Shown here: one piece after another, positions 41,888-47,677 of the stretch
Numbering within the stretch: the stretch's first letter is position 1
How the letters are laid out: every line of letters starts with the position of its first letter
Source: Nesterenkonia lutea
GTDB lineage: Bacteria; Actinomycetota; Actinomycetes; Actinomycetales; Micrococcaceae
Length of the DNA stretch: 64,000 nucleotides
Assembly: GCF_014873955.1 (NCBI RefSeq)
Contig: NZ_JADBED010000001.1
Location: 1,426,001 to 1,490,000, forward strand
Reading direction: 5' to 3'
Notes under the pieces: model-generated
The model's input: the letters and a program-made list of their open reading frames with translations, nothing else
Told to the model about the DNA's origin: nothing
Databases searched by the model: none
Translations under genes and position numbers: made by a program

Positions 41888-42913
<1,026 letters not shown>

Positions 42914-42974: not shown

Positions 42975-43508
42975 TCAGCGCAGCGCTCTGTCGGTCATGG
43001 ATTTCGCACCCCGGGAGATGCCGAGCGTGCCGGAACGCACGATCTCACGGACTCCGTAGGGCTGAAGGACTTCCAGAAGGGCGTTGAGCTTGTCAGGTGC
43101 GCCGGTGGCCTCGACGGTGAGCGAGTCCACGGAGACGTCCACGATCTTGGCGCGGAAGAGCTCGACGGCCTGGGTGACCTGCAGACGGGTGGGCGAGTCA
43201 GCCTTGACCTTGATCAGCAGGTGTTCGCGCTGGACCGAGTTCTCCGGTGCCAGCTCGATGATCTTGATGACGTTGATCAGCTTGTTCAGCTGTTTGGTGA
43301 TCTGTTCCAGCAGCACCGAGTCGGCATGGACCACGATGGTGATCCGGCTCAGCCCGGGCAGCTCCGAGGGGCCCACGGCCAGGGAATGGATGTTGAAGGC
43401 GCGGCGGGCGAACAGGCCCGAGACCTTGGTCAGCACGCCGGGCACGTCCTCGACCAGCACGGAGAGCGTGCGCCGTGGGGCCGGCGAGGCGGTTTCGTTC
43501 GTGGCCAT
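42975..43508 (-). CDS. ilvN: Acetolactate synthase small (regulatory) subunit
   Basis: This 177-residue regulatory subunit activates the catalytic subunit and mediates valine inhibition. Its ACT domain begins LSVLVEDVPGVLTKVSGLFARR, followed by FNIHSLAVGPSELPGLSRITIVV. The C-terminal domain carries VEATGAPDKLNALLEVLQPYG. The ATG lies 3 bases after the ilvB stop, so translation is coupled. Length is typical for the family. Confidence 0.97.
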   Translation of the reverse strand: MATNETASPAPRRTLSVLVEDVPGVLTKVSGLFARRAFNIHSLAVGPSELPGLSRITIVVHADSVLLEQITKQLNKLINVIKIIELAPENSVQREHLLIKVKADSPTRLQVTQAVELFRAKIVDVSVDSLTVEATGAPDKLNALLEVLQPYGVREIVRSGTLGISRGAKSMTDRALR

Positions 43509-43511
43509 GCT

Positions 43512-45389
43512 CTAGTCCTCCTCGTCCCATTCCGGGGTCAGGTTGTGCGCGAACTGGATGTCGCTGTTGGAGACCCCGGCCGGGACCATGGGCCAGACCA
43601 TGGAATCACGGGAGACCACGAAGTCCACGACCACGGGGCGGTCATTGATCGCCATCGCCTCGGCGATCACGGCGTCGATGTCCTCCGGCCTGTCACAGCG
43701 CAGCCCGGCGCAGCCATAGGCCTCGGCCAGCTTGAGGAAGTCGGGGATGCGCACGACCTCCCCGCCTGCGGCGGTCTGCGAGGTGTTCAGGTGGGTGTTG
43801 GAGTAGCGGGACTCGTAGAACAGGGTCTGCCACTGGCGCACCATCCCCAGCGAGGAGTTGTTGATGATCGCGACCTTGATCGGGATCTTGTTGATCGCGC
43901 AGGTGGCGAGCTCCTGGTTGGTCATCTGGAAGCAGCCGTCACCGTCGATGGCCCAGACCACGCGGTCCGGGTTGCCCACCTGGGCGCCCATGGCGGCGGG
44001 CACCGCATAGCCCATGGTGCCCAGCCCCCCGGAGTTCAGCCACTGCCGCGGGCGCTCATACTTGACGAACTGGGCGGACCACATCTGGTGCTGACCGACC
44101 CCGGCCACATAGACCGCCTCGGGACCGGAGGCCTGGCTGATCTTCTCGATCACCTGCTGCGGGGCGATCTTGCCGTCCTCCGGGGCGGTGTAGCCCAGCG
44201 GGTAGGTCTTGCGGAAGTGGTTCAGCTGCTTCCACCAGCCGCTGATGTCGGTGCGCCCGTGCTTGGCGACCAGCGCATCGAAGGCGGTGGTCAGCTCGGG
44301 GACGACTTCCTTGAGCGAACCGACGATCGGCACATCCGCCGCACGGTTCTTGGAGATCTCCGCAGGATCGATGTCAGCATGGATCACCTTGGCGTCCGGG
44401 GCGAAGCTCTCCAGCTGACCGGTGACCCGGTCGTCGAAGCGCGCGCCGAGGGTGATCAGCAGGTCCGAGCGCTGCAGCGCGGCCACCGCGGAGACGGTGC
44501 CGTGCATGCCGGGCATGCCGAGGTTCTGGTGATGGGAGTCCGGGAAGGCCCCGCGGGCCATCAGGGTGTTGACCACCGGAGCACCGACGGTCTCGGCCAG
44601 GGCATGGAACTCCTCCGAGGCCTCGGCCTTGATCATTCCGCCGCCGATGTAGAACACCGGGCGAGAGGCACCCTGGATGAGTCGGGCGGCTTCGCGGATC
44701 TGCTTGGAGTGCCCGCGGGTCACCGGCCGGTAGCCGTTGAGCTCGATCTTGGGCGGCCAGGCGAAGGTGGTCTTGGCGGCCTGCGCGGATTTGGTGATGT
44801 CGACCAGGACGGGGCCGGGTCGGCCGGAGGATGCCAGGTGGAAGGCCTCGGCCATCACTCGGGGGATCTGGTCGGCGTCGGTGACCAGGTAGGAGTGCTT
44901 GGTGATGGGCGTGGAGATGCCGACGATGTCGGCCTCCTGGAAGGCGTCGGTGCCGATGACCGACGCGTTGACCTGTCCGGTGATGGCGACCATGGGGACC
45001 GAGTCCATATGGGCGTCGGCCAGCGGCGTCACCAGGTTGGTGGCGCCGGGGCCGGAGGTCGCGAAGCAGACCCCCACCTTGCCGGTGACCATGGCGTAGC
45101 CCTGGGCGGCGTGTCCGCCGCCCTGCTCGTGGCGCACCAGGATGTGGTTGATCTGCTCGGAGTCCATCAGCGGGTCATAGGTGGGAAGAATGGCACCGCC
45201 CGGGATCCCGAACACGTCTGTCACACCCAGCTCTTCGAGGCTGCGGATGATCGATTGCGAGCCTGTGACCGCCACCGGTTCCACTGTGCGGCCGGGGCCG
45301 TAGAGTCGCTGGTCGGCAGAGGTCCCAGCGGCGCTGCTGGTTGCTTTCGAGGCCAGCAGCGCTGGACTCGTGGCTGTCAGATTGCTCAT
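43512..45389 (-). CDS. ilvB: Acetolactate synthase catalytic subunit
   Basis: This 625-residue thiamine-diphosphate enzyme condenses pyruvate into acetolactate or acetohydroxybutyrate. The catalytic glutamate lies in [18 protein letters not shown]; the cofactor motif is [19 protein letters not shown] followed by NN. FAD-binding and linker regions are intact. ATG 45389 is preferred because GAGGAAAAG precedes it. An upstream in-frame ATG at 45443 would start in the attenuator region. The leader peptide, terminator and promoter lie upstream. Confidence 0.97.
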
Positions 45390-45462
45390 CTTTTCCTCAG
45401 TCTCTGGTTCCCGAATTGCTGGTCCAAGAAGTCTCTGGTCCATGGAGAATCCACTCCGGTCA

Positions 45463-45509
45463 AGAGAAAACCCCGGCTGATAAGCCTCTGTGGGGGCTCT
45501 CTGCCGGGG
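45463..45509 (-). terminator. Candidate transcription attenuator of ilvBNC
   Basis: CCCCGGC (45471-45477) pairs with GCCGGGG (45503-45509), with an inner AGCC/GGCT stem. Read on the minus strand the hairpin is followed by TTTTCTCTT, a good intrinsic terminator located between the leader peptide and ilvB. Alternative pairing with the leader-peptide region would be needed for attenuation; I could not fold it. Confidence 0.75.
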
Positions 45510-45589
45510 TGAGCGTCTGCGTCAGCTCCAGTTCAACCGTCCGGCTGCCTCCGCGGAAGCAGACGAGCGGCCGACCTGGGGCGCGTGAA

Positions 45590-45646
45590 TCACTTCACAC
45601 TTCCCCCGGCGGCGGCTACGGGTACTACCGCTAGTAGTTGACGCAT
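45590..45646 (-). CDS. ilvB leader peptide (attenuation control)
   Basis: An 18-residue frame, MRQLLAVVPVAAAGGSVK, lies between the promoter and the attenuator hairpin. It contains two adjacent Leu codons (CTA, CTA) and three Val codons (GTA, GTA, GTA). These are rare codons in a GC-rich genome and are the end products of the pathway, as expected if ribosome stalling at low leucine or valine prevents the terminator. Stop TGA at 45592-45590. The length of about 80 bases between the stop and the terminator fits an attenuator. Confidence 0.85.
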   Translation of the reverse strand: MRQLLAVVPVAAAGGSVK

Positions 45647-45652
45647 GGCCCC

Positions 45653-45681
45653 ATGCTTTCGCGGCCTGTGACCCGTGTCAA
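45653..45681 (-). promoter_or_regulatory. Probable promoter of ilvBNC
   Basis: A perfect -35 TTGACA (45681-45676) is 17 bases from AAGCAT (45658-45653). Six bases later comes the leader peptide ATG at 45646, so transcription may begin at that A. This is placement evidence only. Confidence 0.6.
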
Positions 45682-45721
45682 CATCCCGGATACCCGTCTC
45701 ACATGGTGGAAATCCGGGGAG

Positions 45722-45762
45722 CCCTCCTGTGCGGGCCGCTCCGAGCCGCCCGCACAGGAGGG
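45722..45762 (-). terminator. Terminator after ilvD
   Basis: CCCTCCTGTGCGGGC (45722-45736) pairs perfectly with 45748-45762, and GCTC/GAGC forms an inner stem. It lies 8 bases past the ilvD stop, isolating ilvD from the ilvBNC promoter just downstream. Confidence 0.85.
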
Positions 45763-45770
45763 TCCTCGGC

Positions 45771-47546
45771 TCATCCGCAGTAGGCGCCCTCGGCGGCCGA
45801 GCGGACCAGTTTGGCGTACTTGCCCAGCACGCCGGTGGTGATGAAGGGGGGCAGCGGAGTCCAGTCCTGCTGCCTGGTGGCGAACTCCGCCGGATCCACG
45901 ACCAGGTCGATGGTGCGCCCGGCGATGTCCACCCGAATGGTGTCCCCGTCGGCCACGAAGGCGATGGGGCCGCCGTCGACGGCTTCTGGGGCGATGTGGC
46001 CGATGCACAGCCCGGTGGTGCCTCCGGAGAAGCGACCGTCGGTGATCAGCAGCACGTCCTTGCCCAGCCCGGCGCCCTTGATGGCTCCGGTGATGGCGAG
46101 CATCTCCCGCATGCCGGGACCGCCCTTGGGGCCCTCATAGCGGATGACGACGACGTCGCCGGCCTGGATGCGACCCTCCTCGAGGGCCTTGAGCGCCTGC
46201 TGCTCACGCTCGAAGACCCGGGCGGTGCCCTCGAAGACCTCGGCGTCGAAGCCTGCGGACTTGACCACGGCACCCTCGGGGGCGAGCGAGCCGGAGAGCA
46301 CCGCGATGCCGCCGTTGTGGTGCATGGGGTTGTCCAGCGCACGGATGATCTTGCCGTCGATGTCCGGCGGGTTGATGGCTTCGAGGTTCTCGGCCACCGT
46401 CCTGCCGGTGACCGTGAGCGCGTCTCCGTGGAGCAGCCCGGCGTCGAGCAGGGCGCGCATCACCACCGGCACTCCCCCGACCCGGTCGACGTCGGCCATC
46501 ACATACTGGCCGAAGGGCTTGAGGTCACCGAGGTGAGGGATCTTGTCCCCGATGCGGTTGAAGTCTTCCAGCTTCAGCTCCACGCCGGCCTCGCGGGCGA
46601 TGGCGAGCAGGTGCAGCACCGCATTGGTGGACCCGCCGAAGGCCATCGTGACGGCGATGGCGTTCTCGAAGGCCTTGAGGGTGAGGATGTCGCCGGTGGT
46701 GATGCCCTTCCGGAGCAGCTCCACCACGGCCTCGCCGGACTTGTGCGCGTAGTGGTCCCGGCGGCGATCTGCCGAGGGCGGGGCGGCCGAGCCCGGGAGC
46801 GACATGCCCAGGGCCTCGCCGATGCAGGCCATGGTGTTGGCGGTGTACATGCCGCCGCAGGCACCTTCGCCGGGGCAGATGGCGCGCTCGATCACGTCGA
46901 GGTCCGCCTCGCTGATGGTGCCGCGGGCACAGGCGCCGACGCCTTCGAAGGCGTCGATGAGCGTGACCTGCTTCTCAGTGCCGTCGGCGAAGCGCGCGAC
47001 ACCGGGCATGATCGAGCCGGCGTAGAGGAACACGCTGGAGAGGTTCAGCCGGGCTGCGGCCATCAGCATGCCGGGAAGGGACTTGTCGCAGCCGGCGAGC
47101 AGCACGGAGCCGTCGAGGCGCTCGGCCTGGATGACGGTCTCCACGGAGTCCGCGATGACCTCTCGGGAGACCAGCGAGTAGTGCATTCCTTCATGGCCCA
47201 TGGAGATGCCGTCGGAGACGGAGATGGTGCCGAACTCCAGCGGGTAGCCGCCGCCTGCATGCACGCCCTCTTTGGAAGCCTTGGCCAGGCGGTCCAGCGA
47301 GAGGTTGCAGGGGGTGATCTCGTTCCAGGAGCTGGCGATGCCGATCTGGGCCTTGGAGAAGTCATCGTCTCCCATGCCGACGGCGCGCAGCATGCCGCGT
47401 GCGGGGGCACGGGTGTAGCCGTCGGTGACCTCCCAGCTGCGTGGCTTCTCCGGAGTGGAGGGTCCGGTGACCGCGACGGGAGGGGTGAAGGGCGCGCCGC
47501 CCTGGGACGTGTTCGTGGGGGTGCTCTCAGCAGTGGGCTCAACCAT
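45771..47546 (-). CDS. ilvD: Dihydroxy-acid dehydratase
   Basis: This 591-residue iron-sulfur enzyme dehydrates dihydroxy-isovalerate and -methylvalerate in valine and isoleucine synthesis. Cluster cysteines are seen in [11 protein letters not shown] and [30 protein letters not shown], the [11 protein letters not shown] segment and the C-terminal [15 protein letters not shown] (catalytic serine) are typical. The first 40 residues are Thr/Pro-rich. ATG 47546 follows the family's usual position; a longer frame is rejected. Confidence 0.96.
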
Positions 47547-47677
47547 GCTCTGAAGTCTATGCCCGTCGCAGCGGCCGCGGCACCCGCATCGCCGCCGTCT
47601 CAGCATTCAGAATCGAACTGGCATGGAGCGATGGATGTCCCCTGGGGAACCGGCAGGGTTCGGATACCCTCGGAGGC

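Follow-up and report, generated by a model that had tools for sequence, protein, structure and literature searches.

A putative ribosome-mediated attenuator of ilvBNC in Nesterenkonia, with a probably leaderless leader-peptide gene and an apparently lineage-specific RNA pairing

Organization of the ilvB Leader Region

The window, that is, the whole 64,000-nucleotide stretch of Nesterenkonia lutea DNA analyzed here, carries on its minus strand a leader region located between ilvD (45771-47606) and ilvB (Table 1). Read along this strand, the elements follow each other in the order TTGACA, a 17-nt spacer, AAGCAT, 6 nt, and the leader ATG, which lies 35 nt from the first base of TTGACA. The 18-codon open reading frame, ATG CGT CAA CTA CTA GCG GTA GTA CCC GTA GCC GCC GCC GGG GGA AGT GTG AAG TGA, comprises two leucine and four valine codons, and the terminator (45509-45462) begins approximately 80 nt past it, upstream of ilvB. 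The initial annotation had read the same peptide at the same coordinates, correctly, and had placed a hairpin with a U-rich tail exactly, at 45471-45509 before ilvB; its TTGACA with 17-bp spacing to the -10 hexamer is also borne out by the sequence, although AAGCAT is weak.

Table 1. Features of the ilvB leader region and the downstream genes in the window
Feature	Coordinates	Strand	Basis
-35 element TTGACA	45676..45681	minus	read from sequence; spacing recurs across actinobacterial loci
-10-like hexamer AAGCAT	45653..45658	minus	3/6 consensus bases, A2 and T6 present
leader peptide ORF MRQLLAVVPVAAAGGSVK plus stop, transcription predicted to start on its A	45590..45646	minus	sequence; recurrence in Nesterenkonia
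sensor region CTA CTA GCG GTA GTA CCC GTA, codons 4-10	45617..45637	minus	codon counts
GCCGGGG in leader codons 13-15, proposed antiterminator strand	45604..45610	minus	recurrence; stalled-ribosome folding
TGCGTCA, 5' strand of the end-locking helix, overlapping the start codon	45639..45645	minus	predicted
TGACGCA, 3' strand of the end-locking helix	45518..45524	minus	predicted
small hairpin spanning the stop of the leader ORF, perhaps a pause hairpin	45583..45600	minus	predicted
middle hairpin in the leader-terminator interval	about 45534..45574	minus	predicted; found in longer leaders
CCCCGGC, terminator 5' arm and antiterminator partner	45503..45509	minus	sequence
GCCGGGG, terminator 3' arm	45471..45477	minus	sequence
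U-tract TTTTCTCTT	45462..45470	minus	sequence
ilvB, acetolactate synthase large subunit, from the re-assigned start	43512..45389	minus	ATG 45389 behind GAGG; family assignment
ilvN, acetolactate synthase small subunit	42975..43508	minus	family assignment
ilvC, ketol-acid reductoisomerase	41888..42913	minus	family assignment

The longest ilvB reading frame opens at ATG 45443; since this codon reads ACG in loci L088-L094, in which ATG 45389 and its GAGG are preserved, ilvB probably starts at 45389, leaving a leader of 257 nt. The fold of the 197-nt leader region beats 200 of 200 dinucleotide shuffles (z -3.38), and in the small hairpin across the stop codon G-C replaces A-U pairs in L088-L090 and L096. 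In addition, a perfect 15-bp inverted repeat without U-tract, CCCTCCTGTGCGGGC...GCCCGCACAGGAGGG (45762-45722, minus strand), follows ilvD and precedes the ilvB promoter, and is possibly the end of the ilvD transcript.

General-purpose searches return little at this locus. Rfam at gathering score yields five tRNAs only in the window and nothing at the leader, where three sub-threshold matches are chance-like. Generic scans of 45380-45900 give zero promoter and zero terminator sites, the former, in our reading, because AAGCAT matches just three of the six consensus bases, and the latter because the loop limit of 8 nt is exceeded by the 25 nt that separate the outer terminator arms CCCCGGC and GCCGGGG.

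Loci and Genomes Compared

The comparison comprises (i) Nesterenkonia, where 30 genomes were searched for ilvB and 28 matched at the cut-off, G001 and G014 being left out for want of a match and L098, L107, and L109 being replaced by L008, L009, and L010, which are the same contigs, with a final set of 28 loci and 27 distinct leader sequences; and (ii) 136 loci outside the genus (77 plus 59 usable of 60 fetched), of which 97 were kept and 39 excluded, the filters being the promoter spacing, at least four Leu/Ile/Val in seven, and a terminator found. Family-level sampling took 60 regions out of 120 genomes listed, the genus labels of part of the loci are inferred, and the 97 include at least two duplicates (L166 equals L019, and L179 equals L032). 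The permutation tests merge identical sequences, and relatedness can raise all of their results. The leader picks used in most comparisons were scored with a promoter bonus, and the spacing test was redone without it.

The leader, the promoter spacing, and the terminator are present in 28/28 Nesterenkonia loci examined, and the peptide itself recurs in all of them, in favor of the initial annotation. No leader rich in branched-chain amino acids with promoter spacing and terminator was found upstream of ilvB in the family-level genomes G040, G042, G071, G092, G094, and G115, an absence that may reflect loss or a different control. Long leader peptides of 17-34 codons occur in L012-L015, L162, L192, and L219, where the added codons precede the Leu/Val run and the promoter spacing is unchanged.

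Promoter Spacing and the Probable Leaderless Start

When the leader reading frame is picked by Leu/Ile/Val density alone (105 loci given, 104 scored), an in-frame ATG or GTG follows [TGC]TGAC at 34-38 nt (35-37 in nearly all cases) in 86 of the 104 actinobacterial loci, compared with 0-4 loci in each of 20 repeats of block-shuffled controls. Hexamers carrying A2 and T6 end 6 nt before the start codon in 9/28 Nesterenkonia and 62/97 other loci, and 7 nt before it in 18/28 and 30/97, respectively, a single locus being able to score at both gaps. The promoter-plus-start pattern, composed after the sequence had been seen, matches once in the window and in 0/100 shuffles. A Shine-Dalgarno-like 5-mer occurs within 20 nt upstream of the leader start in 20 of 125 loci and is absent in 105.

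This spacing, recurring across loci, makes it likely that the Nesterenkonia ilvB leader lacks a 5' UTR, as the initial annotation had proposed; the experimental record for relatives points in the same direction. In Streptomyces lividans, transcription is reported to start on average 6.3 nt from the -10 hexamer, and RNA-seq data are reported to show the ilvB leader IlvL, MRTRILVLGKRVG, as leaderless (PMC8079986); two Streptomyces loci of the present set, L073 and L075, encode the identical MRTRILVLGKRVG with identical -35-to-start spacing. Transcription of ilvBNC in Corynebacterium glutamicum is described as starting a single nucleotide away from the start codon of the leader (PMC11857589). The annotation had further regarded a leaderless sensor peptide as a distinct variation, a claim to novelty that has to be given up in view of these S. 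lividans (PMC8079986) and C. glutamicum (PMC11857589) precedents. The leaderless ilvB sensor peptide, with its fixed promoter-to-start geometry, appears from the comparison to be widespread in Actinobacteria, beyond the two model species. For cysteine, too, leaderless attenuator peptides are known in mycobacteria, reportedly from work by Canestrari in 2020.

Rare Leucine and Valine Codons in the Leader

The CTA-CTA and GTA-GTA-CCC-GTA runs, noted earlier as codons rare in such a genome, are so by direct count: in 41 open reading frames of the window (17,376 codons, the filter favoring GC-rich third positions), CTA accounts for 4 of 1661 leucine and GTA for 4 of 1383 valine codons. The same bias separates the 28 Nesterenkonia leaders from the ilvB bodies of these loci, with CTA in 41/50 versus 3/896 leucine codons, GTA in 72/111 versus 9/1231 valine codons, and ATT in 12/13 versus 31/851 isoleucine codons. 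In 66 leaders outside Nesterenkonia, GTA reaches 66/183 valine codons (59/2934 in ilvB bodies) and CTT 51/127 leucine codons (85/2325 in ilvB bodies).

The genome gives 47 tRNA matches, and ARAGORN on those stretches assigns one gene each to tRNA-Leu(UAG) and tRNA-Val(UAC); the remaining leucine and valine tRNAs are also single, so these isoacceptors cannot be called minor on gene number alone. The CUA control codon of the Salmonella leu leader has been explained by selective charging of isoacceptors (PMC1183508), a theory that would fit CTA and GTA in the Nesterenkonia leader by analogy and that becomes testable here, where the two codons are almost unused in the genome.

Terminator and Copied Terminator Arm

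The terminator, a stem followed by a U-tract, occurs in 28/28 Nesterenkonia loci, its 3' arm being GCCGGGG in 26 and GTCGGGG in two (L096 and L113). Leader codons 13-15 contain GCCGGGG, the same letters as this 3' arm, and the leader can consequently pair with the terminator 5' arm; folding thus discloses the alternative pairing between the leader region and the 45471-45509 hairpin that had been left as a check. All 28 Nesterenkonia leaders contain GCCGGG, retained in another reading frame in L010 and L108, and 26 match the terminator 3' arm exactly, the copy and the arm differing by one base in L096 and L113. Inside the genus, both strands hardly vary, which leaves the permutation of leader-terminator pairing (484/500) little covariation to work on.

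The copied arm was also considered as a general actinobacterial feature and rejected, GCCGGG being found in 0/97 leaders outside Nesterenkonia and the CCCCGGC 5' arm in 0/97 of the same loci. Across 58 leaders set against the terminator arm, at most 10 of 200 shuffles are as good in four (three Nesterenkonia controls and one Kocuria), and the pairing of non-Nesterenkonia leaders with the terminator 5' arm leaves a small signal (native 9.46, swapped 9.14, 6/500).

A group of Kocuria-type loci (L026, L027, L164, L192, L204, and L211) displays leaders that end in GGGCCT before the last stop-codon bases and terminator 3' arms that end in GGGCCT or GGGGCCT, again a copied arm, of a sequence different from that of Nesterenkonia. 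The shuffles as good, out of 200, number 71 in L026, 0 in L027, 1 in L164, 96 in L192, 10 in L204, and 15 in L211, so that L026 and L192 carry no weight alone. When Nesterenkonia and the Kocuria-type loci are permuted jointly, the native pairing scores 20.1 against a swapped mean of 18.38 and 0/500 permutations reach the native value, a signal that is partly the difference between the two genera.

Long-Range Helices Inside and Outside Nesterenkonia

Among the 97 other loci, the leader tends to pair through the final codons of the peptide (e.g., AAG CGC GTG) with the segment immediately preceding the terminator (e.g., CACGCGC). This helix covaries, with a native score of 21.4, a swapped mean of 17.16, and 0/500 permutations over 94 distinct sequences; at least six pairs form in 77/97 loci, a count without control (e.g., L012, L045, L065, L084, and L160). 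Judged from these sequences, long-range covarying pairing of the C-terminal codons with the pre-terminator segment is common in these Actinobacteria outside Nesterenkonia. The genus itself gives no such signal (12.11 versus 12.34, 396/500), and its use of the common helix was rejected on this permutation. The RNA switch would have been exchanged while the promoter, the sensor peptide, and the terminator position stayed, as the comparison suggests, and the leader could serve as a comparative system for the timing of leaderless ribosome loading versus transcription.

A second long-range pairing involves the 5' end of the transcript. In the minimum-energy fold of the window RNA, TGCGTCA (nt 2-8) pairs with TGACGCA (nt 123-129), and by the criterion that at least four of nt 1-9 pair with the last 45 nt in the pre-terminator minimum-energy fold, such a helix is found in 27/27 distinct Nesterenkonia sequences, which are related to each other, versus 84/270 shuffles. 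Permutation inside the genus points to weak covariation (13.82 versus 13.36, 14/500). Elsewhere, 28/95 distinct sequences display the helix versus 327/950 shuffles, and the permutation gives a native 11.49 against a swapped 10.73 (0/500). As a general feature of Actinobacteria the helix therefore meets with a mixed result, its folding being at shuffle level and its permutation at 0/500, and the sequences outside Nesterenkonia carry some 5'-end pairing, or mere relatedness, as well. On the predicted fold, the end-locking helix would hide the leaderless start codon and cross the antiterminator; an equivalent role, hiding the start codon and crossing the antiterminator, is proposed for helix H1 of C. 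glutamicum (PMC11857589).

Simulated Ribosome Positions

Ribosome positions were simulated with an assumed footprint, masked from 18 nt upstream of the first A-site base to 12 nt downstream of it, and the truncated fold stands for the RNA before the terminator 3' arm exists. With the ribosome on the first sensor codon, the truncated RNA forms the antiterminator with a probability of at least 0.85 in 27/28 Nesterenkonia loci and of 0.16 in L106. With the ribosome on the stop codon the value is 0 in 28/28 loci, a consequence of the mask itself. The untranslated state is ambiguous, since the truncated RNA without ribosome favors the antiterminator (>0.5) in 18/28 loci, with 0.98 in the window.

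Moving the ribosome along the truncated window RNA, the antiterminator is allowed on codons 2, 4, 5, 7, and 8 and blocked on codons 10, 12, 14, 16, and 19; on codon 10 (GTA), the ribosome partly covers the GCCGGGG motif. At full-length equilibrium the terminator wins in 10 of 11 states and loses only with the ribosome on codon 8 (antiterminator 0.64); the full RNA without ribosome adopts the end-locked fold at 0.93 with the terminator at 1.00. Since the equilibrium favors the terminator in this manner, the switch must act kinetically.

Proposed Mechanism and Alternative Explanations

The locus is best read as a site of ribosome-mediated attenuation of ilvBNC transcription, its leader-peptide gene probably being leaderless, and we assign this reading a probability of roughly 0.8. 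Recurrence, codon bias, the terminator, and the alternative pairing support the leader peptide and attenuator that the initial annotation had placed upstream of ilvB. Peptide recurrence, rare codons, promoter spacing, the terminator, and the copied arm come from sequence and comparison; what we infer is where transcription starts, that the ribosome stalls, and in which order the RNA folds. RNA polymerase would initiate at the leader ATG or at most one nucleotide from it, and the ribosome would load straight onto the 5' end of the transcript. With charged tRNA-Leu(UAG) and tRNA-Val(UAC) in ample supply, the ribosome would reach the stop codon and cover about nt 37-67, hiding GCCGGGG, so that the CCCCGGC/GCCGGGG terminator could form and transcription end before ilvB. 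When leucine or valine is scarce, the ribosome would stall on the CTA or GTA codons and leave GCCGGGG (nt 37-43) free to pair with the emerging terminator 5' arm (nt 138-144), which would permit read-through. In RNA that no ribosome has entered, the AUG and the rest of the 5' end may pair with TGACGCA (nt 123-129), a helix that would exclude the antiterminator except as a pseudoknot.

The same attenuator could instead have a short 5' UTR, with a ribosome-binding site of ordinary or weak strength driving translation of the leader. The start site is not fixed by the -10 hexamer, which is weak and escapes the promoter scan, and the 20 of 125 loci with a Shine-Dalgarno-like 5-mer within 20 nt would accord with such an arrangement, which we nevertheless consider improbable given the -35-to-start distance of 34-38 nt in 86/104 loci, the lack of the 5-mer in 105/125, the leaderless S. 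lividans leader (PMC8079986), and the C. glutamicum start one nucleotide away (PMC11857589). We hold it just as improbable that terminator and leader are real and the codons are not amino acid sensors, expression being set otherwise. Codon substitutions upstream of ilvBNC in S. coelicolor are indeed described as without effect (PMC1262725), but replacement of valine by alanine abolished valine-dependent expression in C. glutamicum (PMC11857589), attenuation has been described for M. tuberculosis ilvB1 (PMC13236596), and the CTA/GTA bias of the 28 Nesterenkonia leaders is hard to explain otherwise.

Least probable, and to be given little credence, is that the CTA...GTA codons are retained for RNA pairing and not as rare sensor codons. 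The minimum-energy fold of the window does contain a small hairpin between the CTA CTA and GTA GTA regions; against this role, CTA and GTA persist in leaders such as L091 and L100, in whose folds they are unpaired or paired in another way, and GTA and CTT are over-used in the 66 non-Nesterenkonia leaders too.

Returning to the leaderless attenuator, its elements may be joined in a broader reading, which we regard as possible but rather doubtful: the start codon would be part of the switch, each transcript would be sensed once, the common helix would have been replaced by the arm copy, and a parallel would exist in Kocuria. Because the segment that pairs with the 5' end is transcribed some 120 nt later, a ribosome would load only before the polymerase passes that segment, and sensing would fall to one ribosome in step with the polymerase. 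The terminator-arm copy encoded in the leader would have taken the place of the common actinobacterial helix, and the Kocuria-type loci would represent a parallel solution with a different sequence.

Relationship to Known Leader Attenuators

Overall, the leader attenuator looks ordinary in kind, with what appears from sequence and modeling to be a lineage-specific rewiring of the RNA pairing: a leaderless ilvB leader is known as a kind, and the pairing of the Nesterenkonia switch looks new. A literature search, most subscription journals lying outside it, did not disclose the element in Nesterenkonia among the matches listed, and the rewired switch was not found in the published leader descriptions consulted, as far as their accessible text extends. 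Leader peptides and terminators upstream of ilvB in Corynebacterium, Mycobacterium, and Streptomyces are described in PMC1262725, which also reports that codon replacements in the S. coelicolor ilvB leader were without effect on regulation. That leader peptides attenuate ilvBNC in Actinobacteria was already stated in the initial annotation and agrees with the reports on C. glutamicum (PMC11857589) and M. tuberculosis, whose ilvB1 is described as attenuated (PMC13236596).

The ilvL-ilvBHC leader of Streptomyces lividans and S. coelicolor is among the closest known systems, sharing a short peptide rich in branched-chain amino acids, which is reported as leaderless in Streptomyces, and a Rho-independent terminator with a U-rich stretch (PMC8079986). 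In L073 and L075, the C-terminal codons can pair with a segment before the CCCCTCG/CGAGGGG terminator, whereas the window leader is without this C-terminal-codon helix and copies the terminator 3' arm instead. Craster is said to have dealt with the Streptomyces ilvL-ilvBHC leader in 1999.

The Salmonella leu leader is Shine-Dalgarno-led and its fold is different from that of the window leader. It shares CUA as a control codon (PMC1183508). M. tuberculosis ilvB1NC is likened to the window by its published description, and shares with the proposed switch (i) an upstream open reading frame rich in branched-chain amino acids, (ii) a choice between terminator and antiterminator, (iii) GUA as a regulatory codon, and (iv) masking by the stop-codon ribosome (PMC13236596).

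The C. glutamicum ilvBNC, or ilvB-II, leader shares with the window the Leu/Val control codons and a terminator and, by prediction for the window, a start approximately at the leader start codon, an antiterminator, and an anti-antiterminator that shields the start codon (PMC11857589, PMC10272879). Three valine-to-alanine replacements abolished its valine-dependent expression, and a leader-lacZ fusion was active (PMC11857589, citing Morbach 2000). As a further likeness, GGC at leader bases 36-38 pairs there with GCC (76-78) at the foot of the terminator (PMC11857589, PMC10272879). The window differs in sequences and spacing: its leader codons contain 7 nt copied from the outer terminator arm, and its 5' end is predicted to pair approximately 120 nt downstream.
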